Assembly (NCBI GenBank): GCA_016784965.1
Contig: JADHTQ010000004.1
Coordinates: forward strand, 81,990 to 144,423
Origin: Bacteriovoracaceae bacterium
GTDB lineage: Bacteria; Bdellovibrionota; Bacteriovoracia; Bacteriovoracales; Bacteriovoracaceae
Reading direction: 5' to 3'
Length of the DNA: 62,434 nucleotides
In this document: positions 40,784-58,668 of the stretch, piece by piece
Layout of the letters: every line of letters begins with the position of its first letter
How positions within the stretch are numbered: position 1 is the stretch's first letter
Translations under genes and position numbers: made by a program
Notes under the pieces: generated by a model
The model's input: the letters and a program-made list of their open reading frames with translations, nothing else
Told to the model about the DNA's origin: nothing
The model's database searches: none

Positions 40784-41333
40784 TTGCACCCCCAAAGTTT
40801 TCAAAAGTCTGCTCTATGATTGTAAATTCTGGAATGTAGATAGTTTTATTGTCTTTGAGGTTGATATATCTCTCCTGTACCTTGTGCTCTATTAAAACTG
40901 GTTTATTCATCACTTTTTTCAATTTTTCGGGAAGATTTCCAGTTGGAACGTGATACTTTTTGTATGCTTCCAGTTTTGCTTCAATGCTTATCCTGCTATT
41001 GCCGAGATCCAAATCCATAAGATTGAATTTCCCAATATCGTTTTTAGGCAAAATCATCTGCTTTAATTTTCTATTTTCGGGATGATCGCCATAAAAATAT
41101 TTTCCTGCGTATGCACCGCCAATTCCACCGAGTGCTGCACCTAGACCTCCTCCTAATAAACTATTGGCCACTTCGTTTGTTTTTCCTTCTGGACTAAGCT
41201 TTTTACCAACGATTGCTCCGACACTTGCGCCCAGAAAACCGCCGACAATTCCGCCATAGGTCATAGATCTTTTCAAGCTTGAGCAGGAGGATAGGAAAAT
41301 TAAAATAAGAAAAATTTTAATTATTGGTAACAT
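40770..41333 (-). CDS. Lipoprotein with glycine-zipper, transfer operon
   Basis: The 187-residue protein has a signal peptide with lipobox LSSCSS (Cys about 17). Two glycine-zipper membrane segments follow: GGIVGGFLGASVGAIVGKKL and LLGGGLGAALGGIGGAYAGK. The C-terminal half is soluble (KLEAYKKYHVPTGNLPEKLK). Glycine-zipper lipoproteins occur in secretion and transfer operons, where they may reach the outer membrane like VirB7/TraV or act in surface exclusion like TraT. Position after the VirB10-like gene, with overlapping ends, ties it to the transfer apparatus. The precise role is inferred. Confidence 0.65.
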   Translation of the reverse strand: MLPIIKIFLILIFLSSCSSLKRSMTYGGIVGGFLGASVGAIVGKKLSPEGKTNEVANSLLGGGLGAALGGIGGAYAGKYFYGDHPENRKLKQMILPKNDIGKFNLMDLDLGNSRISIEAKLEAYKKYHVPTGNLPEKLKKVMNKPVLIEHKVQERYINLKDNKTIYIPEFTIIEQTFENFGGANAEE

Positions 41334-42104: not shown

Positions 42105-42581
42105 TTAGTGATAAATTCGTCTGCCTTGGTAAATTATCGGGGCACCTTTGTTTAGGTACCTGTGATTTTTGCCATCTATCCTTTGCTGATTAACGGTGAC
42201 TGAAGTTTCCAATTTGTTTTCAAATAGAGTTGAGGAGTTCCCCTCAAGCACTCTAAAATTGTCATTTTCAACAATAACTCGATGATTGCTGTCTATCTTC
42301 CCGTTTGAAACTTGGATGAAATCGTGGGCATTATGTTCGGTACTTTGTAGATAGAAGTTGTATTGTCCTTTGCTAGTTAAAATTAGTAAGTTTGAATAGA
42401 TGCTTTGCCCCAAAGGTTTAATCACTACAGTTTTGTCATTGTTGGCCTTTTTGATAAACAGATCACTTTTTTTCCCTCCATAGATGATAGTTGTCACGGG
42501 ATCTACAAAAGTAACTACTGTGGCCAATTTTAAGCTGATAAATATCGTGGCAATAGCATTTGGTATCATCGAAAAGATCAT
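42105..42581 (-). CDS. VirB9/TraK/TrbG-like protein
   Basis: The 158-residue protein has a signal-like N-terminus. A VirB9-like pattern follows: FVDPVTTIIYGGKKSDLFIK, then KTVVIKPLGQSIYSNLLILT and KGQYNFYLQST. These match the N-terminal domain of VirB9/TrbG/TraK, which builds the outer-membrane core together with VirB10 and VirB7. The usual C-terminal OMC domain seems short (RVLEGNSSTLFENKLETSVT, then ends). It overlaps the upstream gene by four bases. The assignment rests on these motifs and on position directly before the VirB10-like gene. Confidence 0.62.
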   Translation of the reverse strand: MIFSMIPNAIATIFISLKLATVVTFVDPVTTIIYGGKKSDLFIKKANNDKTVVIKPLGQSIYSNLLILTSKGQYNFYLQSTEHNAHDFIQVSNGKIDSNHRVIVENDNFRVLEGNSSTLFENKLETSVTVNQQRIDGKNHRYLNKGAPIIYQGRRIYH

Positions 42582-43051: not shown

Positions 43052-44515
43052 TCATTGCTCCTTATGGTCCTGCTCAAATTCAGGAAAGTCTGATTTACTT
43101 TTTACTATCTTTTTGAGCTTTGAATATTTTTTAGGATCATTGATCCATAATTGATCTTCACCGTGACCACATATCTTTAAAGCGTTTTTTGCAGTCGTTT
43201 TGTTTGTCTGAGATACATCTTTTACACCATTGTTGATATCATGGACGTAAGACCTAGCATCATACCACTGCTGCTCTGACATCCCTCTATGGGAAGAATC
43301 ATCTGATCCATTTTGCATATCGTTGGATTCCCTTAACTTTTTTAAATACATATTTTGGGCGTTTTCAGAGTTACTTTTACTGGGATTATAATTTTGTAGA
43401 AATTCAGAGTGTCCGAGTGTTAAATCACCTAATCCTTTATTGGTCAGGAGATTCCCAACCATTTGCTTTTGTTTATTTATGTTTCGATTTTTTATGGGGT
43501 TAGCGACAGCATCGAGTCCTAACGCTGCTGTTTGGGCCAAATTTGTTGAACCTTTAAATGGATTTGAAAATAGTCCTTGCCTAGCAATAGTTTCAGCAGT
43601 ACTTGGAAATTCATCTTTGATTGCACTTCCGGTATGTGAAAGACCATCTTTTAATTTTTTTCCTCCCCATCCACCGGCCGATGCAAGTTTCCCCGCAAAA
43701 ACAGTTGTGCCTCCAAAGAGTAAGGCCTGGGTTCCCATTTTTCCTAATGCCTCTCCCATAGATGCAATTCCGCTACCATCGATGATCTTTTGGGAGATAA
43801 CAGGGGTAAATAAGAGAAAAACTCCGATTGCTACCATTAGCAACAGTTCATCAATGGACTTACCCGAACTTCTATTGAATCCATCGTATATCGCACCTAA
43901 AAAAATCAGGGAAACACTAACGATCCAAGGCATAAGGATACACCAAATAGTACTTCTCATTGCTGCTCCGACGGCCTTTTTACCAAAACTAAAGATATGG
44001 ATCAGAGAAATAATGCCTACAAATGCATAGGAAAAATGGTAGACTCCTGAATAGATAAATCTTAAAAAGAGCAGGCATAGCCTGACTATGGCCCAAAGGA
44101 TACCTGAAACAAAATCATTTTGTAGAAACTTTGCTTCTTTTATCACCCATCGTTCAATTTTTGAAAACCAACCACCATTTTTTTTCCCATTAACTCTTTT
44201 ATGCTTATTTTCTAGTCTTGAGAGCTTCATAAAGATATTTTTTGAGTATCTTGGTGAACTTAAAAATTCCTCTGCCAAATCGAAGCTACTATTAACTGCT
44301 GCTACATGAAATTGCAGATAAAAGCTAAGCATCAAAAGGGAGAAAATCATTCTTTTGGTAGTGTCAAAAAATTGCATGTCGGTTAGAAAATCCGTTATGA
44401 TCGACCAGATAAAAATCGGTGTCACCAAGTATAAAGCATATTTACTCAGCTCCTTTGCTGCTATGGCAATTACTGGAACCTCTATCAAGAGTGTTTCTCT
44501 TAGTAAATTTGTCAT
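43052..44515 (-). CDS. VirB6/TrbL-like polytopic membrane protein
   Basis: I take ATG 44515 (MTNLLRE), with AAAGGTGG upstream, giving 487 residues. At least five or six TM helices lie in residues 15-260 (ALYLVTPIFIWSIITDFL, IFSLLMLSFYLQFHVAA, GILWAIVRLCLLFLRFIYSG, ILMPWIVSVSLIFLGAI, LLLMVAIGVFLLFTPVI). A glycine-rich segment (GGTTVFAGKLASAGGWGGKK) and a long soluble Asn/Ser-rich tail follow. VirB6/TrbL/TraG-type proteins form the inner-membrane part of the channel. The central region and the order after the VirB5-like gene support this. Confidence 0.72.
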   Translation of the reverse strand: MTNLLRETLLIEVPVIAIAAKELSKYALYLVTPIFIWSIITDFLTDMQFFDTTKRMIFSLLMLSFYLQFHVAAVNSSFDLAEEFLSSPRYSKNIFMKLSRLENKHKRVNGKKNGGWFSKIERWVIKEAKFLQNDFVSGILWAIVRLCLLFLRFIYSGVYHFSYAFVGIISLIHIFSFGKKAVGAAMRSTIWCILMPWIVSVSLIFLGAIYDGFNRSSGKSIDELLLMVAIGVFLLFTPVISQKIIDGSGIASMGEALGKMGTQALLFGGTTVFAGKLASAGGWGGKKLKDGLSHTGSAIKDEFPSTAETIARQGLFSNPFKGSTNLAQTAALGLDAVANPIKNRNINKQKQMVGNLLTNKGLGDLTLGHSEFLQNYNPSKSNSENAQNMYLKKLRESNDMQNGSDDSSHRGMSEQQWYDARSYVHDINNGVKDVSQTNKTTAKNALKICGHGEDQLWINDPKKYSKLKKIVKSKSDFPEFEQDHKEQ

Positions 44516-44516
44516 A

Positions 44517-45239
44517 TTAACGACCACCTTTTCTAAAAGGAATATTTGTTTTCTTAGGATTCACAGCTATGTAATCTGCTAACTCTTTTGTATATCCCTC
44601 CATTCCGTAGAAGTTTTCCCACTTGCGGTTTTTGGCCAAAAGCAAGGCATCCTTTTTAATTTGCTTGTTATTGGATGCTATTAACTGTTCTTTGATATCC
44701 AGAAGGTTATTGTTGGTATTAATTTGCTCACTCAAAGTAATTGCATTGGTTTTAGCGTTGGCCAAAGATATATCTTTTTGAGATGAAGTTGAGGGGATAG
44801 CAGCTCTTCTTACGGCCAGTCCTTTTTTATTGGCGTTTCTTCTTCTATCTTTCCTGTTGTTTGTAGTAACCGCATTATTTCTTATTTTTTCTCTTTCCAG
44901 GGATCTTACAAACTCTTTGGTATCTTGAATCGTTCCTTTTAACCTTTTGACTTCATCAACTAATGATTCCAGATCAGTTACATCGAGTTCTTTTAGAGCT
45001 ATGATTTCTTCTGCGTGATATTGAATCTGTTCGGCCAAGTCGACTTTCTCATTAATCGCATTTGATACCGTAGTGAACTGTTGGGTAACCTTCTTCTGAG
45101 CATTTAAAAGCTCGGTTAATTCGGCCAATTGACTTGCTGTAGTACTAACCAAGTTAGCAAGTAAAATTGAATCTTGAGGCATAAATGATGCCAGACCAGA
45201 TGAAGTTGAAATGATGAATATAATAAAAAAACTAAGCAT
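44517..45239 (-). CDS. VirB5/TrbJ-like secreted coiled-coil protein
   Basis: The 240-residue protein has a signal peptide (MLSFFIIFIISTSSGLASF). Long amphipathic helices follow: LVSTTASQLAELTELLNAQK, EEIIALKELDVTDLESLVDE and SLANAKTNAITLSEQINTNN, with a basic centre (NNRKDRRRNANKKG). VirB5/TrbJ proteins are helical periplasmic or pilus-tip proteins placed just after VirB4 and before VirB6, exactly as here. It overlaps the VirB4-like gene by eight bases. The family call is by shape and order. Confidence 0.62.
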   Translation of the reverse strand: MLSFFIIFIISTSSGLASFMPQDSILLANLVSTTASQLAELTELLNAQKKVTQQFTTVSNAINEKVDLAEQIQYHAEEIIALKELDVTDLESLVDEVKRLKGTIQDTKEFVRSLEREKIRNNAVTTNNRKDRRRNANKKGLAVRRAAIPSTSSQKDISLANAKTNAITLSEQINTNNNLLDIKEQLIASNNKQIKKDALLLAKNRKWENFYGMEGYTKELADYIAVNPKKTNIPFRKGGR

Positions 45240-47106
45240 ATTTTATCTCCGTAAATTTTTCGATACACTCTTTAACCGAGAAATATTTTTTATAATCGCT
45301 TATAAATTCGTTGATCTTCTCTGAGTGTTCTTTGGTGGTATTGAAAATTTCATATTCTAAAGGGGTGCCGAAGTATCTGACACACTTACGGTTAAAGTCT
45401 GATTTATAGTAAAACTCGCTATAGATCCCTTTTACTCCCATAAGACTTTTAACTTGAGCAATATCAAATTTGTCAACAAACTCAGATTCTCTCAGATCCT
45501 GCTTGAAAATGATTTTATGAAATGAGTTTTGAGCGATAACCCGGCCCACAGGTGTTTTAATCAGATCTTCCAAGCTTTGGGAGATTGCTATCGCTGTTGC
45601 TCCTTTTTTCCTAAAGGTTCTAAAAAACTTAACGATAAAATCTTCTGCTTTTTCTAAGATATTCCAGCTTTCCTCTAAAACAAAAATCCTTCTGCCTTCA
45701 AGAGATTTAAAGACTTCAATGAGATAGATAATCAACCCTGGTAAAATCTTATCTGGATACTTATTGCAATCAACAAAAGTTATATCTGCAAGAGGTAATA
45801 GCTCATCAGTAAAATACTCCCAATACTCCTCAAAATAGTATCTAATATCCAAGGATACATCATTCAATTTGAGTACTAGCTCTTTGAAGGTAATGTTTTC
45901 ATCCCGATCTAAAATATCCTTAATTGCAGCAAATAGTTTTCCCTGTCCCTTAATGTCGAAATCATCTTTGTCTGTCATGCTTAAAATCAAATTCTTCAAA
46001 TATACTGGATCTCTAAACTGCATAGGATTAAATTTTGAATCAAAAACATTTCCATTATTATAAAGAGTATTTCGCAAAAATGATGAGTCATAGTCTAAGA
46101 TAATGGCCTTGGCACCTTTTTTTAGCTCTTCGTAAACGACCTTATTCATCAAAAACGATTTACCAACCCCAGTTGCTCCAATGCAAACTACGTTGTTGTT
46201 ATTGGCAACTTTGTTATCGAGTTGAATATGTATTTTAGTACCTGATCTGGATTTAAACTCAACTCCATCCTCATCGATAACATCACAACTCATCGGTAGT
46301 AGATTTGTCAGATATGTTCCGTTGGCCGGATGTGATCTCCCAAAGCTTGGAAACTCAAAAAAGAAGATGTTTTTAAAATATGTCGACAACCCCACGGTCT
46401 CAATCAATCCCTCGTAATCCTTTTGTTTCATTTCATAGAGGATTTGATCGGTTTTTTGATTCAAAAGCTCATAAGAGTTGGCCTTTACAATAATCCATCC
46501 TTCAACATCTAAAAGTGAATCTCTACCATGAATAATTTTTTCTAAAAGCGATTCACTCTCTTGATAGGAAGACTCACTTTCTATATCGCGAATATTTTTT
46601 TGTAGATTGGAGTAGTGAAGTTTCCTTTTAAAGTGAAGTACTTTTTTGGCCTTCTCACCAGATAATCTTTTGAAATTTAAAGCAAAATTTTCAAATTTGA
46701 GAAGCTCACATTTAGCTGGATTTGGTGGCATGTTGTATAAATTGATTAGGCGATAGTATCTACCGTTTAGTATTGCCTTATCTCCCTCAAATGTTGGATT
46801 GGAGTACAGATCATCTAAGTCGTAAAAAAGCTCCTTAAAGTCATTAAGTGGTACTACCTTACAATCTGGAATTGAAAACTCTAATTGATCTGTATAGACA
46901 ATAATGCGTTGATTCAAATGAAAAATGCGTACAAAATTGTTTTCTGGCAAAGTATTGACCCAACCACCTAAGTCCGAATAAAAACTGGTAAGGGAATCAA
47001 TATCAATTTGTTCTAAATCAGGTGGAAATACCTCATATAGATGGCCACTATCACCTGTGATTAGTGATATTTTATGATCTTCAATCATTGTTATTGGAAA
47101 GCTCAT
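45232..47106 (-). CDS. VirB4/TraC-type secretion ATPase
   Basis: The 624-residue protein has AGGAG upstream. The N-terminal half (1-290) is the VirB4 docking domain. The C-terminal ATPase has Walker A GATGVGKS at 310-317, then AIILDYDSSFLRN, FNPMQFRD, Walker B RRIFVLEESWNILEKAEDFI, and FRKKGATAIAISQSLEDLIK. VirB4 drives pilus assembly and substrate passage at the inner membrane and is the most conserved part of all type IV secretion systems. The frame overlaps VirB3- and VirB5-like genes at its two ends. This gene firmly identifies the operon. Confidence 0.92.
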   Translation of the reverse strand: MSFPITMIEDHKISLITGDSGHLYEVFPPDLEQIDIDSLTSFYSDLGGWVNTLPENNFVRIFHLNQRIIVYTDQLEFSIPDCKVVPLNDFKELFYDLDDLYSNPTFEGDKAILNGRYYRLINLYNMPPNPAKCELLKFENFALNFKRLSGEKAKKVLHFKRKLHYSNLQKNIRDIESESSYQESESLLEKIIHGRDSLLDVEGWIIVKANSYELLNQKTDQILYEMKQKDYEGLIETVGLSTYFKNIFFFEFPSFGRSHPANGTYLTNLLPMSCDVIDEDGVEFKSRSGTKIHIQLDNKVANNNNVVCIGATGVGKSFLMNKVVYEELKKGAKAIILDYDSSFLRNTLYNNGNVFDSKFNPMQFRDPVYLKNLILSMTDKDDFDIKGQGKLFAAIKDILDRDENITFKELVLKLNDVSLDIRYYFEEYWEYFTDELLPLADITFVDCNKYPDKILPGLIIYLIEVFKSLEGRRIFVLEESWNILEKAEDFIVKFFRTFRKKGATAIAISQSLEDLIKTPVGRVIAQNSFHKIIFKQDLRESEFVDKFDIAQVKSLMGVKGIYSEFYYKSDFNRKCVRYFGTPLEYEIFNTTKEHSEKINEFISDYKKYFSVKECIEKFTEIKYA

Positions 47107-47667: not shown

Positions 47668-50349
47668 TTATTTCCATCTTTTTCTTGGGTTGCCAGCGAT
47701 AGTCCAGCTAATATCAAAATGTGGCTCACTAATGAATTTATGGTCTGTTGTTTGCTTGGAAAAACTCTCATGTAAGGGCCTGCAATTATCTTCGATATAA
47801 CCGGCAGCTTCAGAAGTTGCTTCAATTTGTTCAACAGAGACTACAAGGCCATTGCTTGCAAGTGCTTTATAAACATCACTATTAATTTTTAGCCTTGCAA
47901 CATATTTTGATTTACTACCACCTAGGCTTTCGACAACAACAGGTTCGGTGTTATCAGCAAGCAGCTCATTTATATGAAAATAGTTGCCATTTTTACCAAG
48001 AATAACAATTCTATCAACAAACTCGCCGACAGAGTCTTCACTAAAAGAAACTGGTACTCTTTGCTCTTCATAACTTTGATATAAAACATCGCAGTTGCTA
48101 ACGTTTGTTGGACGATCTGCGTATTCTCTACAAACCTGCTCGTTTTTAATACATCGGACCTTCCACTTTTCACAAACTCTTCCATCACCTGATCCGCCTC
48201 TTGACTTCTGCTCGCTAGGAGTCCAAAGCATGGGCGTCCAATGGATACATGTTTTTTCCTCTTTTGTGCAAACAGTTTCATTTCTTGAGCAGTAATGTTC
48301 TAAATCCCAATGAGAAACTAACTTGGTATAATCTTGAACCCGGTACTTGTTTACGGTCGGATTCTTAATAGTTAAGGTGATCTCATCGCCAGCTTTGAGG
48401 TTTTTGATAACCTGGTGCTTGATAGGAGTTGTTTGGCCTGCTATTAAACCGACCTTTTGGGTAGCATCTAACTCTCGTACTTCATTTTTGGCAGCGGCCA
48501 ATTGTGAAATGGTAGAGAAAACAAAAGCATAAGTTTTTCCAACTACAATTGGATCTAAAAGTGACGTTTTATCTTGCGATAGATATGTCCATAATTTTTT
48601 GTTGAGAAGATTTAAAGGAACTTGATAAAGGTCTATTGGCCCTAAATGATCAGTTTTATAGTTTGCAATTGAAAGGATTTGCTCCGATGAATCTATTTCG
48701 ACAGGTTTTTTAAGTTTGTTGAGACACTCAATAATAGAGTTGTTGGTTGTAAATAGTTTTGGCGACACATAATAAATGTTGGTTTCATTCTCCGTCGAGA
48801 TGATAATACGTGCAGTCTTGCTATACACATTTTTTAAAAGATCTTTGTATAAGATTGACTTATTATTTAAATAGTTAATCTGGTAATCTGCTACAGAAGC
48901 ATATAGTCCAAGACTATTTTTAACAACGCTAGATGTAACATAGGGGGATAGTTTTTTGTAACTCAAAGAAAACAGTGTCTCCTCTTCATTGCTGAGACCA
49001 TCGACTAAATTTAAAACGGTACTAGAACCATCGTGGGTGGTTGACTTTTGAGTACCTAAGCTTTTTAGTCCTCCATCGAATACGAATAGATTAATACTTA
49101 CATTTTCAATTTCTTTAATTCCTGGATTATTTGCAAGGCCAAATCGATGTGAAAAATTGACTTCTCCACTATTTTCTGCAAACTCAAACATTTCTTGTAC
49201 AAGGTCTTCAATTTCAAACATCTTTTTAATTTGATCGGCAAATTGCCAATTCGATAATTTAAAGAGGTGTAAAAACCTGTCATCAAAGGACCAGGGAACA
49301 TTATCTAAAACACCTTGGTGCTTTTTGTATGCTTCGCACAATAGGTACTCTCTAAGAGCAAGAGAGCTATCGCTTTGATCCTTAATAGATGAAAGATTTA
49401 TTGACCTGGTACTGCCATTACCTGGGTGATTTAAGTTGAATGATGTTTTGAGGTGAGATTCACCTGTAAGCTCCAATCTAGATAAATTAGAGATAAATGG
49501 GTTTTTACCAGATTCCAGCTCAAGTAAGTCGGGGAGGAGATCACCATCTGAATCCTGTGCTTTGCTTACATTAATTGTTATTGTGCCAACTTTGGCCGAA
49601 CTTAGGCCTTGTTCATCAACAACCCTATAGGTAAATGAGTCAGTTCCTTCAAAATACATGTCTGGTGTATAGATACATTTTTTAAGCTCTGCATCTTCAC
49701 CAATGCATTCTTCAAGAACACCATGTCTTGGCAACTCTGATATCTTGTAGACAAGATTATTTGAATCAACATCTTCCCCCGTTGGCAGTTCAACCTGTAG
49801 CTGTTCACCTCCGCTTACAAATAGAGTCAAATCGGGTGTTTCATTTAGCAGAGGAGGATCATTAACCGCTTGAATTACAAATTTGATAACTACAGCTTGT
49901 TTGTTGTCAGTACCTGGAACTTTTACCTCATACTCTAATCTATCCTCGCCAGTAAAATTGATGTTTGGAACATATTGACAGTTATTGTCAGTTTCATTTT
50001 CTAGGAAGCAACCTTCAATCACTCCATGTACTGGCGGTTTAAGTAGTTTATATTGAAAATCTCTCTCAACTGCCTTAAAAGGCGAAAAATCAATTTTAAG
50101 ATCTTCTTTTCCTGTTAAGATCTTCGAAGCAATAAATGGTAATGTATAATTTCCTACCTCACCGGTTGAAAGTGTGGCCACATTTGTATCTGATATATCT
50201 TTTGATGATGAGCTGTCATTTACTATCCCATCAACCTCTTCCTCTGACTTAAAAGAACAGGCAACAAAAATAAATGCCACTATAATGCATACCAAGACTA
50301 AAAACCTGTTTTTGCTTATCCAATTATATTTTCTACTCATATTATTCAT
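47668..50349 (-). CDS. Large surface lipoprotein with Ig-like repeats, transfer operon
   Basis: The 893-residue protein starts at ATG 50349 (AGGAG upstream), with signal peptide and lipobox FVAC. Two tandem units of about 100 residues (about 60-260) share the pattern HGV(I/L)E-x-C...C-x-Y-x-P...F-x-G-x-D, joined by VNDPPLLNETPDL, as in cadherin-like Big_9 repeats. A calcium-type loop DSDGDLLPDLLELESGKNPF follows. The long middle is unassigned. The last 200 residues are Cys-rich (YCSRNETVCTKEEKTCIHW, CEKWKVRCIKNEQVCREY). Placed ahead of the pilin gene, it may be a mating-pair adhesin with a TraN-like role; that role is inference. Confidence 0.7.
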   Translation of the reverse strand: MNNMSRKYNWISKNRFLVLVCIIVAFIFVACSFKSEEEVDGIVNDSSSSKDISDTNVATLSTGEVGNYTLPFIASKILTGKEDLKIDFSPFKAVERDFQYKLLKPPVHGVIEGCFLENETDNNCQYVPNINFTGEDRLEYEVKVPGTDNKQAVVIKFVIQAVNDPPLLNETPDLTLFVSGGEQLQVELPTGEDVDSNNLVYKISELPRHGVLEECIGEDAELKKCIYTPDMYFEGTDSFTYRVVDEQGLSSAKVGTITINVSKAQDSDGDLLPDLLELESGKNPFISNLSRLELTGESHLKTSFNLNHPGNGSTRSINLSSIKDQSDSSLALREYLLCEAYKKHQGVLDNVPWSFDDRFLHLFKLSNWQFADQIKKMFEIEDLVQEMFEFAENSGEVNFSHRFGLANNPGIKEIENVSINLFVFDGGLKSLGTQKSTTHDGSSTVLNLVDGLSNEEETLFSLSYKKLSPYVTSSVVKNSLGLYASVADYQINYLNNKSILYKDLLKNVYSKTARIIISTENETNIYYVSPKLFTTNNSIIECLNKLKKPVEIDSSEQILSIANYKTDHLGPIDLYQVPLNLLNKKLWTYLSQDKTSLLDPIVVGKTYAFVFSTISQLAAAKNEVRELDATQKVGLIAGQTTPIKHQVIKNLKAGDEITLTIKNPTVNKYRVQDYTKLVSHWDLEHYCSRNETVCTKEEKTCIHWTPMLWTPSEQKSRGGSGDGRVCEKWKVRCIKNEQVCREYADRPTNVSNCDVLYQSYEEQRVPVSFSEDSVGEFVDRIVILGKNGNYFHINELLADNTEPVVVESLGGSKSKYVARLKINSDVYKALASNGLVVSVEQIEATSEAAGYIEDNCRPLHESFSKQTTDHKFISEPHFDISWTIAGNPRKRWK

Positions 50350-50373: not shown

Positions 50374-50544
50374 TTACTCCAACCGCATGAGTGGACTATA
50401 GGGGTATTCTCTGAAGTGTCTCCTATGTGATCGGGCACGCTCCTCCTCTTTATTAATACTGTTTGCCTCATCAATTTTTTTAAATGTTGAACAACCTGAA
50501 AATAAAATTAATAGGCATCCAAAAACCATGTTTTTCTTCCTCAT
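50374..50544 (-). CDS. Short lipoprotein (VirB7-like size)
   Basis: The 56-residue protein starts at ATG 50544, with AAAGGAGAAAG upstream; the frame is open further upstream without a site. The signal peptide ends with lipobox FSGC (Cys about 17). The mature part is short and charged (STFKKIDEANSINKEEERAR, then RHFREYPYSPLMRLE). Its size, lipid anchor and place in the operon suit a VirB7-type stabiliser of VirB9, although VirB7 usually lies nearer VirB8/9. The start overlaps the sigma-like gene's stop as ATGA. Confidence 0.6.
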   Translation of the reverse strand: MRKKNMVFGCLLILFSGCSTFKKIDEANSINKEEERARSHRRHFREYPYSPLMRLE

Positions 50545-51008
50545 TCTTTCTCCTTTTTTTGTATTTTGTTCTGAGATAATTCTTGTAGCAACTTTGAACA
50601 TGCACGCTTTTTCAAGCTTCTAATACTTGAGCGAGATAGGCCTAATTCCTCGGCCGCACAAGCTTCAGATCGCTCTTCCCAATATATCTTTTTTATTACC
50701 TCTATTTCACTCAACGATAGTTTTTTTAAGGCGAACCTTAAGGTCTCTTCAGGATCTGCAATTTCTGTTAATTCTTCGCCCGTAGCACAACTGTTTAATA
50801 AGCAATCACCTTTTATTCTTTCAATGTTTTTGGGGTACTTGAGTAACTGTTCTTCCCTTTGCACTTCCAATGTTTGTAAATATTGCTCCCAAGTTATTGC
50901 ACTCCATCCCTTACTAATTTCCATGAGTCTTTCTCTGGGCAGTATATTTCCTTTATTGTCGACCCATGGGGCAATTTTTTTGTTTATGATATTTGATACC
51001 TCTTGCAT
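50541..51008 (-). CDS. Sigma-70 region-4-like regulator in the transfer operon
   Basis: The 155-residue protein starts at ATG 51008 with AAAGGG upstream. The C-terminal 60 residues form a sigma-region-4/LuxR-type helix-turn-helix: LKKLSLSEIEVIKKIYWEER, then SEACAAEELGLSRSSIRSLK and KRACSKLLQEL. The N-terminal part (NIINKKIAPWVDNKGNILPR, ISKGWSAITWEQYLQTLEVQ) is not recognised, and region 2 of a full sigma factor is not evident. It is probably a transcription factor or anti-repressor of transfer genes. Being inside the operon, it could make a feedback loop downstream of the sigma-54 switch. Confidence 0.6.
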   Translation of the reverse strand: MQEVSNIINKKIAPWVDNKGNILPRERLMEISKGWSAITWEQYLQTLEVQREEQLLKYPKNIERIKGDCLLNSCATGEELTEIADPEETLRFALKKLSLSEIEVIKKIYWEERSEACAAEELGLSRSSIRSLKKRACSKLLQELSQNKIQKKEKE

Positions 51009-51270: not shown

Positions 51271-51423
51271 TTAGTCCACATTTTGCGTCATAGGTTTTAA
51301 AGTTATAATTTTCAATTTCAACTTATTTAAAATATGCATTACCTTTGGATTTTGATTTTTTTCCGTTTTTGATAATGCCCTTTTTAGTAGATTTAATCTT
51401 TTCAGCAGATTATGTTCACTCAT
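51271..51423 (-). CDS. Small basic protein of the transfer operon leader
   Basis: The 50-residue protein (MSEHNLLKRLNLLKRALSKT and so on) starts at ATG 51423, with AGGAG seven bases upstream. Lys-rich and helical, it has heptad-like leucines. Its start overlaps the stop of the preceding 52-residue gene, which supports real translation of both. No family is recognised. A small DNA-binding or regulatory role is possible. Confidence 0.5.
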   Translation of the reverse strand: MSEHNLLKRLNLLKRALSKTEKNQNPKVMHILNKLKLKIITLKPMTQNVD

Positions 51424-51574
51424 TGTTTTCTCCTGGCTCACTTAATTTTTGAATTGCACATTCAAATGACTCAATAGATTTTAAAATTTTTGGATTTCTG
51501 TTCAATTCATCGAAGGATAGTTGATAGCAAAATTCATTAAAAAGATTTCTAATCTCATTCATTGTTTCGTTCAT
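51416..51574 (-). CDS. First gene of the transfer operon, small protein
   Basis: The 52-residue protein starts at ATG 51574 (MNETMNEIRNLFNEFCYQLS), with AGGGA upstream. It is about 50 bases downstream of the sigma-54 -24 element, hence the first gene of the transcript. It is mostly acidic and helical (FDELNRNPKILKSIESFECA). Its end overlaps the next small gene by eight bases. No family is recognised. Confidence 0.5.
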   Translation of the reverse strand: MNETMNEIRNLFNEFCYQLSFDELNRNPKILKSIESFECAIQKLSEPGENNE

Positions 51575-51605: not shown

Positions 51606-51624
51606 AGAGCAACCCTCATGCCAA
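51606..51624 (-). promoter_or_regulatory. Sigma-54 (-24/-12) promoter of the transfer operon
   Basis: Read leftward, TTGGCATGAGGGTTGCT (51624-51608) matches the consensus TGGCAC-N5-TTGCW with one mismatch (T for C). The GG and GC elements have correct spacing. Transcription would start near 51597, about 23 bases before ATG 51574. A sigma-54 activator gene lies next to it on the other strand, and no competing promoter is needed. Confidence 0.78.
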
Positions 51625-51722: not shown

Positions 51723-51757
51723 GTCACAAATTGGGACTATACGGTCACAAAATGGGA
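51723..51757. promoter_or_regulatory. Activator-binding direct repeat (enhancer candidate)
   Basis: GTCACAAATTGGGA (51723-51736) and GTCACAAAATGGGA (51744-51757) are direct repeats with 13 of 14 identical bases and a 21-bp period, two helical turns. They lie about 100-150 bp upstream of the sigma-54 promoter, the usual distance for NtrC-type enhancers, and about 45-80 bp before the activator gene, so they may also adjust its own transcription. Confidence 0.65.
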
Positions 51758-51800
51758 TTCCTGTTGACTTCTTTAGGTATTTTGAAGTAAACCTTTTTTC

Positions 51801-53204
51801 ATGAAAATACATAAATACAGACAAAGAAATATATTGGTTCTTGAGGATGAAAAATTTATCAGTATTACCATAACAGATATTTTGAAAAAGTTTGGCCATG
51901 TCATCAATGCTAAAAATGAAATAGAAGCCAAAAAATATCTTTTGAAATACAATTTTGATTTAGCATTAATAGACCTTGAGATAAATGGTGAGATTAAAGG
52001 CCTTGAGGTATTGCAACTATGCGATAAGCTCAATGTACCTTCTTTTGTTGTTTCGGGCCATGAAGAGGAAGACCTCATTTTAGATGCCTATGGTCTAAAA
52101 TGTGAGCATTATTTAGAAAAGATTGACCTTGGTAATACTTTGAATGAATATGTAAGAGAGTTCTTTAGCAGAGGTGATAGAAAAGAAAGAGTGCGAGAGT
52201 TCTTTGAAACAAAATATATTACTCAAGATGAAGAGCTTATTTCAAGCATATTAAAAGCACTTGAATTAAACGCACATAAAACCCCAATTCTTATTACCGG
52301 CCCTTCCGGATCAGGAAAAACATGTCTGGCAAGAGGTTATCACTTGTTAAAATATGGAGATGAAAAAACATTTCAAGTCGTAAATGGAGGAGGTAAAAAT
52401 CCTGAGCTGGTTAATGATGAGGTTTTTGGCCATGTGAAAGGAGGATATACAGGTGCAGACGAAAATAAAGATGGAAAATTCTATTTGGCCCAAAATGGGA
52501 CAGTCTTTATTGATGAAGTAGGAAACGTAAGTATTGACTTCCAGGAAAAACTTTTAATAGCTATCGATGAGGGATGGTATGAACCCATTGGTTCATCGGA
52601 ACCAATTCAAACAAATGCGGGAATTATTACTGCTACATGTAAAGACCTAAGAGAAATGGTAGGACTCGGACTCATGAAAGAGGATTTTTGCAGTAGAATA
52701 AAAGGTTTTGAGTTAAGAGTTAAGCCTCTAAATGAAAGAAGAGATGATATACCCCTTCTAGTCAGACATTACCAAAAACAACAGCCTCGCAAATTTTTTA
52801 TTGATGATGATGCAAAAAAATATCTCTATAGTTACAATTGGTATGGTAATGTACGAGAACTAAAGAGAGAAATTCAAAAACTAGCGAATTTAAAAAAGAC
52901 AAAAATTTACTCTCGTGATCTACCAGACAATATCATAAAAAATATCAACCCCTTTAAACTTGTTCAAGAAAAACTATTTACTCGTTTTCATAAAACATAC
53001 TTGAGAAAACATGGATATCAAGCCTATTTAGACAAAATCAAACAGGACATGATTGATTTTATTGACGAGGATGTTTGCGGTAATGGTTATGAGGCAGAGG
53101 AAAGATATGGTATTGGGAAATCTAATTTCTATAGGTTAATGAAAAATCCTAAAGGCAATAAAAAATCAAAAGGTGCAAGCTATGTTAGTACAATTGTCCA
53201 ATAA
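51801..53204 (+). CDS. NtrC-family sigma-54 response regulator
   Basis: The 467-residue protein has a receiver (1-120) with acidic LEDE near 15, phospho-acceptor Asp58 (LALIDLEI), and Lys in HYLEKIDLG. The AAA+ domain (about 140-375) has Walker A GPSGSGKT (167-174), Walker B VFIDE (235-239), and the sigma-54 loop as GGYTGA (214-219) instead of GAFTGA, keeping the essential Thr. A Fis-type helix-turn-helix lies near the C-terminus (EAEERYGIGKSNFYRLMKN). It would bind the repeat at 51723-51757 and open the sigma-54 promoter of the transfer operon. It is the first gene of a seven-gene operon with a phosphorelay. Confidence 0.92.
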   Translation: MKIHKYRQRNILVLEDEKFISITITDILKKFGHVINAKNEIEAKKYLLKYNFDLALIDLEINGEIKGLEVLQLCDKLNVPSFVVSGHEEEDLILDAYGLKCEHYLEKIDLGNTLNEYVREFFSRGDRKERVREFFETKYITQDEELISSILKALELNAHKTPILITGPSGSGKTCLARGYHLLKYGDEKTFQVVNGGGKNPELVNDEVFGHVKGGYTGADENKDGKFYLAQNGTVFIDEVGNVSIDFQEKLLIAIDEGWYEPIGSSEPIQTNAGIITATCKDLREMVGLGLMKEDFCSRIKGFELRVKPLNERRDDIPLLVRHYQKQQPRKFFIDDDAKKYLYSYNWYGNVRELKREIQKLANLKKTKIYSRDLPDNIIKNINPFKLVQEKLFTRFHKTYLRKHGYQAYLDKIKQDMIDFIDEDVCGNGYEAEERYGIGKSNFYRLMKNPKGNKKSKGASYVSTIVQ

Positions 53205-53400
53205 AAAACGAATGCGTCATGATTTCATGAATGCATTTGTTGTTCTAAATAGCAATATGAAGTATTTAATAAATCGCGATCGGGAGATAGGGCTTTCTCA
53301 TGATGAAATTGTAGAGTTTGAACAAAACCTAAAAAATGCTCAGATAAAATGGGATCTATTTAAACACGAAATATTATCAAAGAGTGGACACAATGGTTAA
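53182..53400 (+). CDS. Stand-alone H-box (DHp/Spo0B-like) mini-phosphotransferase
   Basis: The 72-residue protein starts at ATG 53182 (AAAAGGTG upstream), overlapping the regulator's end by 23 bases. An H-box near the start, KRMRHDFMNAFVVLNSNMKY (His13), is followed by a second helix (IVEFEQNLKNAQIKWDLFKH). RHDxxN followed by hydrophobics is the Spo0B/SpoOB_a pattern, where the His relays phosphate between receivers. Two such helical hairpins could dimerise into a four-helix bundle. Encoded between a response regulator and a two-receiver kinase, it may complete a phosphorelay. The family call is from motif reading only. Confidence 0.55.
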   Translation: MLVQLSNKKRMRHDFMNAFVVLNSNMKYLINRDREIGLSHDEIVEFEQNLKNAQIKWDLFKHEILSKSGHNG

Positions 53401-54160
53401 TGATAGTATTAAAGAAAAATTACACATCGTTGGAAGTGGAAGAAGCCCAAACAAAATGGTCTGTGTTCATGGTGGTCCAGGTATGGACTATAGTTATTTT
53501 CTTCCATATTTGAGACAGCTATCTTTTGATATGGATTTGATATTCTTCAAAAGTGGAAGCATATATGGAAAAGGGTCAATCGATCTTTTGGTAAAAGAGG
53601 TGATCCATGTGTTACAGTATTTTAAAGGGACCAACCTTTTTTTATTAGGCCATTCGTTTGGGTCGGCAATAGCACTAGAAGCAATAAAAGAAACTCAAGA
53701 ATATGTTAATGGCCTTTTACTTGTATCATGGATATTTAACAATACTATTAGAGATTATAGTAATTTTACACCACTAGATAATTATTCAGATTCTGACTTT
53801 CAAAGAGATTCATTAAGAAGCATCTCTTCCTATTTTGTTGATAGCTGTATTAACAAGGGCCATGACACGCTTAGAAAAGTATCATATGATGGCAATATGT
53901 TTGCAAAATTAGAGGCAGACTATCTTGTAAAATTTGATTTAACAGATTCTCTTAAGAACCTCACCATACCAACCATTAGTTTGGCAGGTATTAAAGATGA
54001 TGTTGTTCCAATTAAACACATTAAAGATGGTCTTAAGATAAGCAGTATCACTCATATTGACTTTGAACATTCCAAGCATTTTCCTTTTATAGAGGAGAAT
54101 GAGAAATTCACAAATGTTGTAAAGAAATTTATATCCAACGCAACAAAGGGGGCAAAATGA
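53393..54160 (+). CDS. Alpha/beta hydrolase, proline-iminopeptidase-like
   Basis: About 255 residues from ATG 53393; ATG 53384 is possible too. The oxyanion motif HGGPGMD at about 26-32 and the nucleophile elbow GHSFGSA (Ser88) match the S33/proline-iminopeptidase group. A later Asp (AGIKDDVVP) and His (HSKHFPF) complete the triad. There is no signal peptide, so it is cytoplasmic. Members cleave N-terminal residues of small peptides or hydrolyse lactones and esters. In this operon it could mature, recycle or destroy a signal molecule. It overlaps both neighbours slightly. Confidence 0.75.
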   Translation: MVNDSIKEKLHIVGSGRSPNKMVCVHGGPGMDYSYFLPYLRQLSFDMDLIFFKSGSIYGKGSIDLLVKEVIHVLQYFKGTNLFLLGHSFGSAIALEAIKETQEYVNGLLLVSWIFNNTIRDYSNFTPLDNYSDSDFQRDSLRSISSYFVDSCINKGHDTLRKVSYDGNMFAKLEADYLVKFDLTDSLKNLTIPTISLAGIKDDVVPIKHIKDGLKISSITHIDFEHSKHFPFIEENEKFTNVVKKFISNATKGAK

Positions 54161-54423
54161 AAAAATCGTTACAAATTATCGTTATAGTTGTTGGTGTTTT
54201 ATCTGTATTTCAAATCTTTGCAAGTGCAGACCGTACGGGTACAAATGGCCTAACAGCTAATATAAAAAGACTAGAGGTCGTCTCAGATCGGTTAAAAAAC
54301 AAAATAGAAGAAAATAATGGAATGAACTTAATAGACCTTCGAGAAAAACTTAATTTAGTGCGTTCTCAACTTGAAGCCGCAAAGGCCAGAACTTCTAAGC
54401 GTAAAGCTCCTCCAGGTATATAG
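54157..54423 (+). CDS. Small exported protein, candidate signal precursor
   Basis: The 88-residue protein with AAAGGGGG upstream has an ATGA overlap with the hydrolase gene. A signal peptide (LQIIVIVVGVLSVFQIFASA) is followed by a single amphipathic helix (LTANIKRLEVVSDRLKNKIE, then LREKLNLVRSQLEAAKARTS) and a basic tail KRKAPPGI. No family is recognised. Its size, export signal and place between a peptidase-like hydrolase and a methyltransferase suggest a precursor or carrier of an extracellular signal. A structural periplasmic helper is an equal option. Confidence 0.55.
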   Translation: MKKSLQIIVIVVGVLSVFQIFASADRTGTNGLTANIKRLEVVSDRLKNKIEENNGMNLIDLREKLNLVRSQLEAAKARTSKRKAPPGI

Positions 54424-55041
54424 ATGATTGGAAACACTATCATGGAACAAATAATTTATAAGTATTCTAAATACATTTGGGTATTAATATTTTCAATGTT
54501 TCTCCTTTATAATCTATATTACTTTGCTACTTCAAAAGACGTCATTTTTTTATGTAAACTTACACTTAATGGACTACTTGTTGCTTCATTTATTGCTCAA
54601 AGAGAAGCCAGCACGACACTGACGTCTAATAAGGCACTCGTTACAACTTTTGTACCGGTGATTATACCACCGTTGATGTTAACCGATGGTATTTTGATCA
54701 ATGAGAAATACTCATTAGTTCTTATCACAATAGGATTGATTTTCTCAGCACTGGCAGTAATTGAGCTATGGGAATCATTTGGAGTTTTGCCTTCTTTGAG
54801 AACCTTAAAATTTGGTGGTCCTTATAGAATCGTTAGACACCCCATTTATTTTGGTTATTTTATGTCTTCCCTTGGAATACTATTTCTATCTTTTTCAATC
54901 ACAAATATAGTTCTCTTTACATTGTTTATTATCTTTTCTTTTCTAAGAATTAATATGGAAGAAGAGTTGTTGACCAATGAATATTCATATCGAAAGTATA
55001 AAGAACAGGTTAAATATAGGATGTTACCATGCATTTACTAG
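54424..55041 (+). CDS. ICMT/PEMT-family membrane methyltransferase
   Basis: The 205-residue protein begins directly after the previous stop; ATG 54442 is an alternative start. It has five or so TM helices and the family signature near 135: FGGPYRIVRHPIYFGYFMSS, then EEELLTNEYSYRKYKEQVKY and RMLP. These match the isoprenylcysteine carboxyl methyltransferase/PEMT fold, which uses S-adenosylmethionine to methylate lipid-like or C-terminal carboxyl groups in the membrane. In a signalling operon the likely target is the signal molecule or its precursor. No prenylated substrate is evident, so the substrate is open. Confidence 0.8.
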   Translation: MIGNTIMEQIIYKYSKYIWVLIFSMFLLYNLYYFATSKDVIFLCKLTLNGLLVASFIAQREASTTLTSNKALVTTFVPVIIPPLMLTDGILINEKYSLVLITIGLIFSALAVIELWESFGVLPSLRTLKFGGPYRIVRHPIYFGYFMSSLGILFLSFSITNIVLFTLFIIFSFLRINMEEELLTNEYSYRKYKEQVKYRMLPCIY

Positions 55042-56549
55042 CAACACACAAAATTATTACAGCTATAGTAACAATGGCCGTTGTTTTAACGCTACTGTTT
55101 GCTGCAAAGAGGAGCCATGTAACAGAAATTAATGTTTATAGAAAAGCTATATATTCGATTCCAGATAAATTTAATACTCTTGAGCTTGTTTCAACCTCTG
55201 AACACACTATATCTCATTTAATCTATGAAGGACTCTTTACTGTCAATAAATTCATGGAAACAGTTCCACTACTTGTAAAAGATTGGACTCTTGATTCCAC
55301 CAAAACACAGTATACCTTTTCAATTCACAGGGATATCAAGTTTTCTAATGGTTCATTAATGACTCTGAGTGATGTTAAGGATTCTTTAGACAGACTTCTT
55401 GATAACAAAAGTCCAGTTAAGGATATGTTTAAAAAGATTAAAAGCATAAAAATCGTAAATGACAGTATCGTGGTAAAGATTGATTCACCATACCCACCAT
55501 TTATATCTTTGCTGGCTTCACCCTTTGCTAAAGTTTTAAAAATGAAAAAAGGGCATAGTTACCCTATAGGAACAGGACCTTTCGTCTTTAAAAACATTGG
55601 AAACAAAAAAGGCAAGAAAGTCTTGGTCTTAGAGAGGAATCCATTTCATAGAGAAAGGCCTTTAATAGAGCAAATGGAATTGTGGGAACTTACTGAACCA
55701 GAAGCATTAAAACTTGTTGGAGATGGATTTATTCATGATACTTCAATTTATCTATCGGTGAGAGGTAAACACAAAAGTAATAAGAAAGTTAAACAAAATT
55801 TTTCCTCTACTGCCGTTACATGGCTCTTTCCCCTAAATACCAAAAGCAAGAAGCTATCCGATATTGGTCTTAGAAAATGCATCAATAAAGTCTTTAGAAA
55901 GAGTGAGTTTATCAAAAAGTTTAGACCTGATCATAAAGAGGCCATTGGTTTTTTGCCTCCTACTTTGCTCGGTGGTGCTAAAAAGATTCAACAAGAAAAT
56001 TTATCAAAAATAAACTGTTACAAATATGATGGCATCGAGTTAAATTTTGATATACCCGTTGAGCTGGGCGAACAAGTGCCAGAAATGTGTAAGTTCGTAA
56101 AACATAATTTTGGAGAAATTGGTATCAAGATTATATGTAACCCTATCAAATTTGGCATATTGGTAGATAGAATAAAACAAGCTTCTTCAGAAATTTCTTT
56201 TTTGTCCCAAACTTTGGATTACCCTGATGTTGAGTATTACTTTACGACATATGAAAGCAACTCACATTTTAACATATCTAATTTTTCTTCGAAGGTAATC
56301 GATCAACTTCTCAATCAAGTTCGCTTCTCATCGGATAGATTTGACAGGAATGAGATTTACTATAAGTTAAATCAGTATCTATATGATAATTATGTCACGG
56401 TTAATATCTCTTATCCTAATCACATAAGTTATAGGCATATATGCTTACGCAACTTCAATATTAGTACAGCAGGAGAGACATACATAAATTATAAATCCAT
56501 AGGAATTGATTCAAGTTGTAATTATGCGAGTGACTTTAATGATGGGTAG
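55029..56549 (+). CDS. OppA-type (SBP family 5) solute-binding protein
   Basis: The 506-residue protein has an N-terminal membrane anchor or signal (IITAIVTMAVVLTLLFAAKR). Family-5 features follow: ISHLIYEGLFTVNKFMETVP, LVKDWTLDSTKTQYTFSIHR, DIKFSNGSLMTLSDVKDSLD, PIGTGPFVFKN and SYPNHISYRHICLRNFNIST near the end. These proteins bind peptides or other solutes on the outside of the inner membrane. No permease or ATPase genes are near. Its stop overlaps the kinase gene, so it probably passes ligand binding to the kinase. It may remain membrane-tethered, as no lipobox is present. Confidence 0.82.
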   Translation: MHLLATHKIITAIVTMAVVLTLLFAAKRSHVTEINVYRKAIYSIPDKFNTLELVSTSEHTISHLIYEGLFTVNKFMETVPLLVKDWTLDSTKTQYTFSIHRDIKFSNGSLMTLSDVKDSLDRLLDNKSPVKDMFKKIKSIKIVNDSIVVKIDSPYPPFISLLASPFAKVLKMKKGHSYPIGTGPFVFKNIGNKKGKKVLVLERNPFHRERPLIEQMELWELTEPEALKLVGDGFIHDTSIYLSVRGKHKSNKKVKQNFSSTAVTWLFPLNTKSKKLSDIGLRKCINKVFRKSEFIKKFRPDHKEAIGFLPPTLLGGAKKIQQENLSKINCYKYDGIELNFDIPVELGEQVPEMCKFVKHNFGEIGIKIICNPIKFGILVDRIKQASSEISFLSQTLDYPDVEYYFTTYESNSHFNISNFSSKVIDQLLNQVRFSSDRFDRNEIYYKLNQYLYDNYVTVNISYPNHISYRHICLRNFNISTAGETYINYKSIGIDSSCNYASDFNDG

Positions 56550-58668
56550 CGGAGATATAAAACCACTTAAAGCGATTATGAAGGGATATAGCAAGCTTGC
56601 TGCAATCCAACTCACTATTATAACCTTCACCATATCACTGGTTGTTTTCATAACTGCTTTTTACTTTCATGTAAATTCCAACGTAACAGCATCATTTGAA
56701 GGCATGAGGTCTTATCTTGCACAAAACATCTCTATAGATAAATTAGAAACGATGAGACAATTAAATTCGCTGTTGAAGGCCGATAATATCTTAGGATATT
56801 GGATACAAGATTTGAGCAATAACGAAATTGTGAATGAGAAAGTTTTAATCGATAATTTAGATATCAATGAAGCGTCCAGCGAACATGTAACTCTAGTCAA
56901 TGGCTCAATCATTATCTTCAAAAAATTTATATTAAACAGTGCCAACAAAAAAGATTCTTTTAATATTACCATTGCGTCTAACTTAACCTATTTACCTTTT
57001 TTTATTTCATTAATATTTTCAATCATTTTATCTTCAATTTTTTACTTACTTATCATCAAGAGGTTTGCCTATATTTCAAAAAAAGTTTCAAGCTCCATAA
57101 GTGCTATCATTCCATTTATCAGCAATCCTGACCAAGATGATAGGTTAGATGAATTAAACAATTTTTATACTTCTATTTATGAAATTAATTATCTTAAAGA
57201 TGCCATTATAGATTTCACTTTAAAATTGAAAGAATCTGAAAAAAAACTTCTTGAGCAAGAAAAGGAAGTGGCCCTATCGAAGTTAGCAAGACAAGTTCAT
57301 CATAATTTACAACACGACCTGTTGACACTAAATAGGATTACTAGGGATGTATCGTCTAAAATCTCTCTTGAACAACGTAATTTATTAAGGGGATGTATTA
57401 ACTCTGTTATTGATACGGTAAACAACCTCAAAACTGATAATAAATCCAGTTTACTTCACAGTTCCTCAAAAAATACCTATCTAAATATGATGTTAGAATA
57501 CTTGGTATCTCGTTTACGTACCAATTGGAAGACGGAAAATGTCGAAATTCTTTATTCAGTAGAACAGGCAACTCAGGGAATGTTTGTCAATATGGCCCCG
57601 CATGTTCTGTCATCAATAGTCTCAAATATTGTCAAAAACGCTATTGAGGCCTGTAAACCTATGGGAAAAGACTACGTTGCACAAATTATTATTTCCCTAA
57701 TTCATGATAGCACTGCCTGTAAAATTTTAATCAGAGACAATGGCATTGGTATTTCAAGTGAAATTAAAGACCGTATTTTTGATGAGGGGTTTTCTCATAA
57801 CAAACAGAATGGATCTGGGATAGGACTCTCACATGCTAAGCAAGTTTTAGAGCGAGCCAGAGGAGCAATTGAAGTCAGTTCCGAAGCAGGAAAAGGTAGT
57901 ACTTTTACACTAACTATACCATTAGCTCAACGACCTAAATGGTATATCGACAGAATTTTAGTAAAGCATAAGGCCGGAATCATTGTCATTGATGACGAAT
58001 ATAAATATTATAAGTCCTTAAAAGAAAGGTTTGACGATGCTGGTATAACCTCTCACTATTTTTCATCTAAAGAACATTTTGAGACAAGTCTGAAAAATCT
58101 ATTGTATCCGTTAAGAGATTATATCATCATTGTTGATTATGAATTTACAGGACAACGTTATGATGGTTTTGAAATTATTGCAGGACACTGCTTGTTTGAT
58201 AATGCAATCATGATGACCAATATGGCCGATGAACAACATATTATGGATAAATGTAAGGAGCTTGAAATATCATTAATTCCAAAAAAATTAGGTGACTCGA
58301 TTATAATTGAGAAGGCCAAGAGATGTCCTGATCATCTAAAAATAAACTTCTTAGATGATGATAACTCCATACTAAATATTCTTAAAAAAGATGCTAAACT
58401 ATATGGTCTTAAGGCCAATTTCTTTTCTGATGCTCAAGAAATGGTAAGAAAAGTTAAAGAGAATAAAGATCGAGATGCCATCTTTTTTATTGATTTCAGC
58501 TTAAATAAGACAACCGGTGATGTTGTTACTACCGAGCTTTTTGAATTGGGATTCAACAATCTTCATATTCTAACTGGTTATGATGTTTGTGATCTTCCAC
58601 CTATGTATAACGTAAAATCCATTTCTAATAAGGGCTTTCCACGCGGAATACTTGACACTTATCTTTAA
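56539..58668 (+). CDS. Histidine kinase with two C-terminal receiver domains
   Basis: About 709 residues from ATG 56539 (upstream starts are possible; no site is strong). TM helices at about 22-45 and 152-173 enclose a 105-residue periplasmic sensor. The H-box is RQVHHNLQHDLLTL (His255 probable). ATPase motifs are NIVKNAIEA, DNGIGI and GSGIGL. Receiver 1 has VIDDE, Asp533 (IIVDYEF), MMTNMAD and LIPKKL. Receiver 2 has FLDDD, Asp652 (FFIDFSL), HILTGYD and ISNKGF. Both receivers keep the key residues. With no output domain, phosphate must move on, plausibly through the 72-residue H-box protein to the NtrC-type regulator. The overlapping binding-protein gene suggests ligand control. Confidence 0.88.
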   Translation: MMGSGDIKPLKAIMKGYSKLAAIQLTIITFTISLVVFITAFYFHVNSNVTASFEGMRSYLAQNISIDKLETMRQLNSLLKADNILGYWIQDLSNNEIVNEKVLIDNLDINEASSEHVTLVNGSIIIFKKFILNSANKKDSFNITIASNLTYLPFFISLIFSIILSSIFYLLIIKRFAYISKKVSSSISAIIPFISNPDQDDRLDELNNFYTSIYEINYLKDAIIDFTLKLKESEKKLLEQEKEVALSKLARQVHHNLQHDLLTLNRITRDVSSKISLEQRNLLRGCINSVIDTVNNLKTDNKSSLLHSSSKNTYLNMMLEYLVSRLRTNWKTENVEILYSVEQATQGMFVNMAPHVLSSIVSNIVKNAIEACKPMGKDYVAQIIISLIHDSTACKILIRDNGIGISSEIKDRIFDEGFSHNKQNGSGIGLSHAKQVLERARGAIEVSSEAGKGSTFTLTIPLAQRPKWYIDRILVKHKAGIIVIDDEYKYYKSLKERFDDAGITSHYFSSKEHFETSLKNLLYPLRDYIIIVDYEFTGQRYDGFEIIAGHCLFDNAIMMTNMADEQHIMDKCKELEISLIPKKLGDSIIIEKAKRCPDHLKINFLDDDNSILNILKKDAKLYGLKANFFSDAQEMVRKVKENKDRDAIFFIDFSLNKTTGDVVTTELFELGFNNLHILTGYDVCDLPPMYNVKSISNKGFPRGILDTYL

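Follow-up and report, generated by a model that had tools for sequence, protein, structure and literature searches.

A seven-gene operon of a Bacteriovoracaceae conjugative element probably encodes a peptide-pheromone circuit that controls transfer

The seven-gene operon described here lies at 51801-58668 of a 62-kb stretch of DNA (contig positions 81990-144423; hereafter the window) from the 4.59-Mb genome of a member of the Bacteriovoracaceae, a family that counts Halobacteriovorax among its named members. It adjoins the transfer genes of an integrative and conjugative element (ICE), and it is likely to encode a self-contained, autoregulated peptide-pheromone circuit that travels on the mobile element and controls its conjugation. 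The features that carry this view are the gene set and its synteny among relatives, a conserved tail on a small exported protein, sigma-54 promoters, repeated palindromes, and linkage to type IV secretion system (T4SS) genes. A sequence-only reading of this DNA had described seven overlapping genes that sense a signal and switch on conjugation. All seven open reading frames (ORFs) are present, each overlapping or abutting the next, and the idea that an exported signal controls conjugation is supported by the conserved P-x-I/V tail of the small exported protein and by the sigma-54 promoters and element-specific palindromes found before both operons. The conservation of the tail is an addition beyond that reading. 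Coordinates are in window numbering, except those that follow a locus label such as L050.

In the circuit that we propose, the small exported protein would be the signal precursor, and its C-terminal P-x-I/V end the signal or part of it. Two enzymes would be dedicated to this precursor, a cytoplasmic hydrolase resembling proline iminopeptidases, which would trim it or turn it over, and an ICMT-type membrane methyltransferase, which would methylate its C-terminal carboxylate. The released peptide would be bound in the periplasm by an OppA/DppA-type protein, and the ligand-bound protein would signal to a membrane kinase. Phosphate would then reach a sigma-54 response regulator, probably via the receivers of the kinase and a small H-box hairpin protein in the window element and directly elsewhere. 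The regulator, acting on element-specific palindromes upstream of sigma-54 promoters, would control the transfer operon; in most relatives it would also control the signalling operon. We infer the secretion, processing and methylation of the precursor, the binding of the ligand, the phosphotransfer and the sign of control from the genes and sites described below.

Relatives were searched for in the order of the host, in 84,980 species genomes, and in 369 genomes of the phylum. The same six-gene set, consisting of an SBP_5 binding protein, kinase, sigma-54 regulator, hydrolase, small exported protein, and methyltransferase, occurs in more than 30 clusters, which are nearly confined to the Bdellovibrionota and come from several of its families; the few clusters with other taxon labels seem to come from bins that are mixed or misnamed. 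T4SS genes adjoin at least 23 of the clusters, often becoming visible after wider flanks were fetched. The operon is thus not absent from related ICEs, the outcome that would have counted against the sequence-only reading, and recurrence beside T4SS genes holds for six of the seven genes; no copy of the H-box protein gene was found in the other searched genomes of the order, and the gene order is mostly a different one. Commonly the binding-protein gene comes first, followed by those for the kinase, regulator, hydrolase, small protein, and methyltransferase. The window has regulator, H-box protein, hydrolase, small protein, methyltransferase, binding protein, kinase, an order that, the H-box protein gene aside, is also found in L153 (genome G354) and in part in L152 (G328) and L039 (G093), and the binding proteins of these four loci form a separate, well-supported clade. 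Two deep branches have thus kept the gene set while its order changed, which argues that the genes function as a unit. A phage origin was considered and rejected, as viral contigs yielded no relatives; a tblastn search of plasmids returned SBP_5 proteins under 60% identity and nothing else.

The case for a peptide signal rests most firmly on the small exported protein. In the window it has 88 amino acids (54157..54423, plus strand), a single, N-terminal hydrophobic segment, and the end ...KRKAPPGI, and every complete cluster has a small ORF with a hydrophobic N terminus between the hydrolase and methyltransferase genes. The homologues range from 37 to 119 amino acids (n = 33), and 32 of the 33 end in P-x-I/V, the last three residues being PGI in 23, PGV in 5, PTV in 2, and PTI, PHI, and GGI in the others. 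Two extra homologues from a search with the family profile end in GPGI and EPGI. The codons for Pro, Gly, and Ile/Val differ among homologues, which indicates that selection acts on the residues, and the spacer between signal segment and tail runs from near zero, in the 37-amino-acid protein that ends ...QEQAHADPFHEPGI, to about 90 residues. Such tails are rare in the same loci: 22 of 1,101 ORFs of at least 100 amino acids end in P-x-I/V, 16 of them in PG-I/V, and if these 16 are assumed to be precursors themselves, the background is about 6 in 1,085 other ORFs (about 0.6%), with none ending in PG-I/V. Four short precursors (L054, L074, L070, and L153) have an AxA motif resembling a signal peptidase site 8 to 11 residues from the end, as in AHA↓DPFHEPGI, and cleavage there would yield peptides of a size that OppA-type proteins can bind. 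We regard a conserved tail on an exported protein of variable length as the signature of a peptide-signal precursor. Two other explanations of the tail were considered and set aside. Overlap with the Shine-Dalgarno sequence or start codon of the next gene does not fit, since the codons and the spacing to the methyltransferase start vary and the PHI, PTV, and PTI ends lose the GG codon; a PEP-CTERM-type sorting signal is not favoured, the tails having neither a C-terminal hydrophobic helix nor a basic end.

The same protein could instead be a membrane partner acting within its own cell, with the P-x-I/V tail docking into and gating the binding protein or kinase and with modification by the hydrolase and methyltransferase as the switch, such that the cell would sense its own state or an outside nutrient and not its neighbours. 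The N-terminal hydrophobic segment is conserved and has an invariant Gln, as in a membrane-anchored protein, and long precursors of some clades have a conserved middle part. However, a tail that stays fixed at lengths of 37 to 119 amino acids, together with AxA motifs 8 to 11 residues before the end of several short precursors, suits a released peptide better, and periplasmic SBP_5 receptors normally bind soluble ligands, so we consider a membrane partner unlikely. As an observation on its own, this Gln (residue 19 of the window protein) is unusual for a plain signal peptide, and the segment may be specifically recognized.

The identities that the sequence-only reading gave to the regulator, peptidase-like hydrolase, small exported protein, ICMT-type methyltransferase, and OppA-type protein agree with Pfam or NCBIfam matches or, in the case of the small protein, with its hydrophobic segment. 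The hydrolase (53384..54160, plus strand) is an alpha/beta hydrolase of the proline iminopeptidase (S33) kind with a Ser-Asp-His triad by motif and no signal peptide. It matches Abhydrolase_1/S33 in Pfam and an NCBIfam proline iminopeptidase family at 2e-18, under the cut-off of that family, and its GGPG and GHS(F/Y)G motifs and C-terminal His are conserved in nearly every aligned relative. The methyltransferase (54424..55041, plus strand; RHPIYFGY...E) matches PEMT/ICMT in Pfam (1.3e-9), and its family keeps HP(M/I)YxGY and a late Glu, the C-terminal motif HPxYxGY...E of ICMT and PEMT enzymes. The precursors have no C-terminal CaaX box. The gene order suggests that both enzymes act on the precursor; methylation of the carboxyl end of the tail is a tentative proposal, for which we put the chances slightly below even.

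The candidate receptor for the signal is an SBP_5 (OppA/DppA-type) binding protein (55029..56549, plus strand) with a Pfam match to SBP_bac_5 (1.2e-36) and a structure model of SBP_5 fold (pLDDT 85). The model is structurally closest to AapF (Z = 42.1) and to DppA and OppA (Z = 38 to 40), and the pheromone receptor PrgZ (Z = 35.5) is also among its top 50 neighbours; all of these bind signals or peptides. The first Asp of a DYPD motif is invariant across the family and stands at what we take to be the position of the Asp that binds the peptide amino terminus in DppA and OppA, which suggests a peptide ligand. An environment-sensing two-component system, in which the binding protein would detect an outside nutrient or a prey-derived peptide while the hydrolase and methyltransferase would be metabolic passengers, appears very unlikely to us. 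Nutrients are common SBP_5 ligands, NCBIfam ranks nickel-binding NikA first for this protein, and AapF, a structural neighbour, has a plant compound as its ligand in a system that also has a proline iminopeptidase (PMC4981722, PMC10134790). Yet such a system would leave unexplained why the place between the hydrolase and the methyltransferase is always taken by a conserved small exported protein whose tail is fixed, and why the operon has no genes for an ATP-binding cassette (ABC) permease.

Control of conjugation is suggested by the promoters. The transfer operon reads leftward from about 51.6 kb and the signalling operon the opposite way, and the claim that the transfer operon has a sigma-54 promoter of its own was borne out: its genes include those for VirB4, VirB9, VirB10, and the two halves of VirD4, and the -24/-12 element TGGCATGAGGGTTGCT (51608..51623, minus strand) is the best match in the window. 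This element lies 34 bp before a plausible start, with a Shine-Dalgarno sequence, of the first small ORF (52 amino acids; 51416..51574, minus strand). Two copies of GTCACAAAnTGGGA(C/T), 21 bp apart (51723..51758), stand 100 to 135 bp upstream of the -24 element and are candidate enhancer sites of the regulator. The sequence thus has both -24/-12 promoters and upstream enhancer-type repeats, as a sigma-54 regulon would, and the host genome has rpoN. Sites of the GTAGCGCTAC type are candidate regulator targets besides GTCACAAAnTGGGA(C/T), and a perfect palindrome, GTCACAATTTGTGAC, at 16526-16540, outside the element, resembles the two candidate enhancer copies (at 51723 and 51744).

Of 32 elements compared, 19 have a strong sigma-54 site ahead of the binding-protein gene, mostly about 55 bp upstream, where shuffled sequences gave a mean of 0.1 and a maximum of 2. 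Upstream of these signalling-operon sites lie palindromes that are specific to each element. In several elements the palindrome recurs ahead of the transfer operon, and in most of these cases a sigma-54-like site follows 70 to 120 bp further on; the transfer-operon sites score below those of the signalling operons. Copies before both operons were found at L050 9023 and 16075/16162, L045 10939 and L098 11924/11846, L044 8975-8995 and 15208/15319, L065 9722 and 8215, and L068 9744 and 7114, and, by a looser criterion, in L081. The repetition of an element's own palindrome before both operons points to one regulator for both, and the regulator most likely controls signalling and transfer operons alike.

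The regulator (51801..53204, plus strand) consists of a receiver, an AAA+ domain with a GGYTGA loop, and a helix-turn-helix domain, as identified by motifs and by Pfam matches to the receiver and to Sigma54_activat (2.9e-40). Most of its relatives retain GAFTGA. A model for LuxO matches the regulator at 1.5e-39, yet far under the cut-off of that model. The membrane histidine kinase (56506..58668, plus strand) has a HATPase_c match (1.5e-20), two transmembrane segments, and a periplasmic part of about 110 amino acids. The kinase itself was confirmed. In both of its C-terminal receivers the motif residues (Asp pocket, phospho-Asp, Thr, and Lys) can be made out by eye; Pfam detects the second receiver, weakly (6.5e-4, under the cut-off), and not the first. 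The proposed mini-phosphotransferase (75 amino acids; 53173..53400, plus strand) is a real ORF with an H-box (RHDFMN), and an AlphaFold2 model (pLDDT 79) shows a hairpin of two helices (residues 2-35 and 43-70), which makes that role plausible. It has no Pfam match and no homologue in the other searched genomes of the order. Structural matches of the hairpin were only common helical folds (Z < 8), the top one, to PcfF of pCF10, being dismissed as meaningless. The H-box protein is found in the window element alone and the kinases of most relatives are plain, without receivers, so the relay would be a local elaboration; we give even odds that phosphate passes through the H-box protein in the window element.

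The sign of control could be negative, a sub-case of the pheromone circuit and not an alternative to it, in which the signal would switch the kinase off and donor-rich populations would stop transfer while donors among recipients would transfer. A hybrid kinase acting with a sigma-54 regulator resembles LuxQ-LuxU-LuxO, where kinases are active at low signal (PMC5007282), and the signal gene is carried by the element, like phrI of ICEBs1 (PMC4010749). No sequence feature sets the sign, however, and positive feedback is suggested, though not proven, by the sigma-54 promoter ahead of the signalling operon; we hold inhibition to be somewhat unlikely.

Several observations weigh against a pheromone circuit tied to conjugation. 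No clear sigma-54 promoter precedes the window's own signalling operon. In two clusters, from genomes G087 and G088, the regulator gene is missing and no T4SS gene was found within about 30 kb, so the circuit is not invariably linked to conjugation. The NCBIfam match to NikA, far under its cut-off, leaves the ligand of the binding protein unfixed by sequence. In many precursors 70 to 100 residues separate the tail from the hydrophobic segment, so that its release would require a protease, and no exporter besides Sec is evident.

Some loci hold variants of the gene set. The G088 and G087 clusters (L042:9959-14547 and L047:6445-11051), perhaps domesticated copies, have a stand-alone receiver of 102 amino acids after the methyltransferase in place of the sigma-54 regulator. 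A decayed element in G009 (L181:8899-10228) retains a truncated hydrolase, a precursor (...TDGPGI), and a methyltransferase beside an integrase fragment and is a possible signal-only leftover. In a Calditrichaceae bin (L094:9800-14740), a related triad of binding protein, kinase, and sigma-54 regulator is possibly a related sensor module; the locus was not counted as a member, as the precursor and the enzymes were not found there.

The window contains both the integrase beside a tRNA gene and the T4SS genes that mark an ICE. The tyrosine integrase (31933..33237, minus strand) adjoins tRNA-Pro (31783..31859); no second tRNA-Pro repeat occurs in the window, and the right end of the element may lie outside it. 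The transfer operon, all on the minus strand, begins with small ORFs, followed by a Sigma70 region-4/TrfB-like protein (50541..51008; Pfam), an 893-amino-acid lipoprotein-like protein with Ig/cadherin repeats (47668..50349; Pfam), VirB2/3-like ORFs, VirB4 (45232..47106), a VirB6-like gene named from position and conservation, with no Pfam match (43052..44527), VirB9/CagX (42105..42581), VirB10/TrbI (41317..42096), and a split coupling protein. Domain scans named no relaxase among those of its ORFs that were scanned. The Sigma70 region-4/TrfB-like small regulator has homologues in 11 fetched loci, mostly close to the start of the transfer operon, and may act downstream of the sigma-54 step. The coupling protein gene virD4 is intact in relatives and interrupted in the window (36143-40804): its N-terminal half (40124..40804) corresponds to residues 28-206 of an intact relative and its C-terminal half (36143..37048) to residues 234-455, with two transposase ORFs (rve, IS481-type; 37405..40077) between them. 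This copy of the element is therefore probably not self-transmissible today. Farther downstream than the signalling operon, the opposite strand carries a gene for an RHS-repeat protein with a glycine-rich C-terminal part (60238-62085).

Known systems share parts of this arrangement. In enterococcal pCF10 and pAD1, peptides cut from secreted precursors and bound by the OppA-family protein PrgZ control conjugation (PMC6540685). The likeness lies in an OppA-family binding protein (PrgZ matches our model at Z = 35.5), and it would extend to the precursor if the small exported protein releases its conserved C-terminal end as a signal. In contrast, the enterococcal systems are Gram positive and import the peptide, which targets the RRNPP repressor PrgX, and the described core has no kinase, sigma-54 regulator, hydrolase, or ICMT; the seven operon proteins have no TPR or RRNPP match in Pfam, and the receptor-regulator pair here is a kinase and a sigma-54 regulator. 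Vibrio LuxPQ-LuxU-LuxO joins a binding protein and hybrid kinase to a phosphotransfer protein and a sigma-54 response regulator (PMC5007282). It resembles our system in the regulator at the end of the relay and, if the H-box protein passes phosphate, in the type of relay, but it has no peptide precursor, hydrolase, or methyltransferase and no connection to conjugation. LuxP belongs to another binding-protein family and has AI-2 as its ligand; the binding protein here is of the SBP_5 family and hence not LuxP-type. Despite these likenesses in working, the circuit belongs neither to enterococcal pheromone conjugation nor to LuxPQ-LuxU-LuxO. In the PipR/AapF system of Pseudomonas, the SBP_5 protein AapF and proline iminopeptidases are encoded beside the regulator (PMC4981722, PMC10134790), and AapF is the best structural match to our binding protein. 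That system differs in its LuxR-type regulator and full ABC importer, neither of which Pfam finds among the operon proteins, and in being plant responsive, with the ethanolamine derivative HEHEAA as ligand and no connection to conjugation. The RapI-PhrI pair of ICEBs1 and Rap-Phr of pLS20 also let an element's secreted peptide regulate its own transfer (PMC4010749); they differ in having Gram-positive RRNPP receptors and an imported, inhibitory peptide.

Searches of the open literature, which left most subscription journals and preprints uncovered, turned up no account of this gene set, in line with the sequence-only reading, which knew of no such system. Quorum sensing is reviewed as relying on peptides in Gram-positive and small molecules in Gram-negative bacteria (PMC8895600), and peptide-controlled conjugation has been described for Gram-positive elements (PMC6540685, PMC4010749). 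Gram-negative bacteria are not known to use a circuit of this kind for conjugation. We suggest, with the odds marginally against so broad a claim, that the tails represent a new class of ribosomally made pheromone in Gram-negative bacteria: short PGI/V-ended peptides, perhaps methyl esters, that are carried by mobile elements throughout the phylum and time conjugation through a periplasmic SBP_5 protein, a kinase, and a sigma-54 regulator. The precursor sequences predict the signals, so the idea is directly testable with synthetic peptides. If true, an element-borne peptide circuit spread through a Gram-negative phylum would be a new class of signal. It would also suggest a role in bacterial signalling for ICMT-type methyltransferases, with methyl-ester peptides that would recall the yeast a-factor, and it would show how conjugative elements sense one another in predatory and related bacteria.

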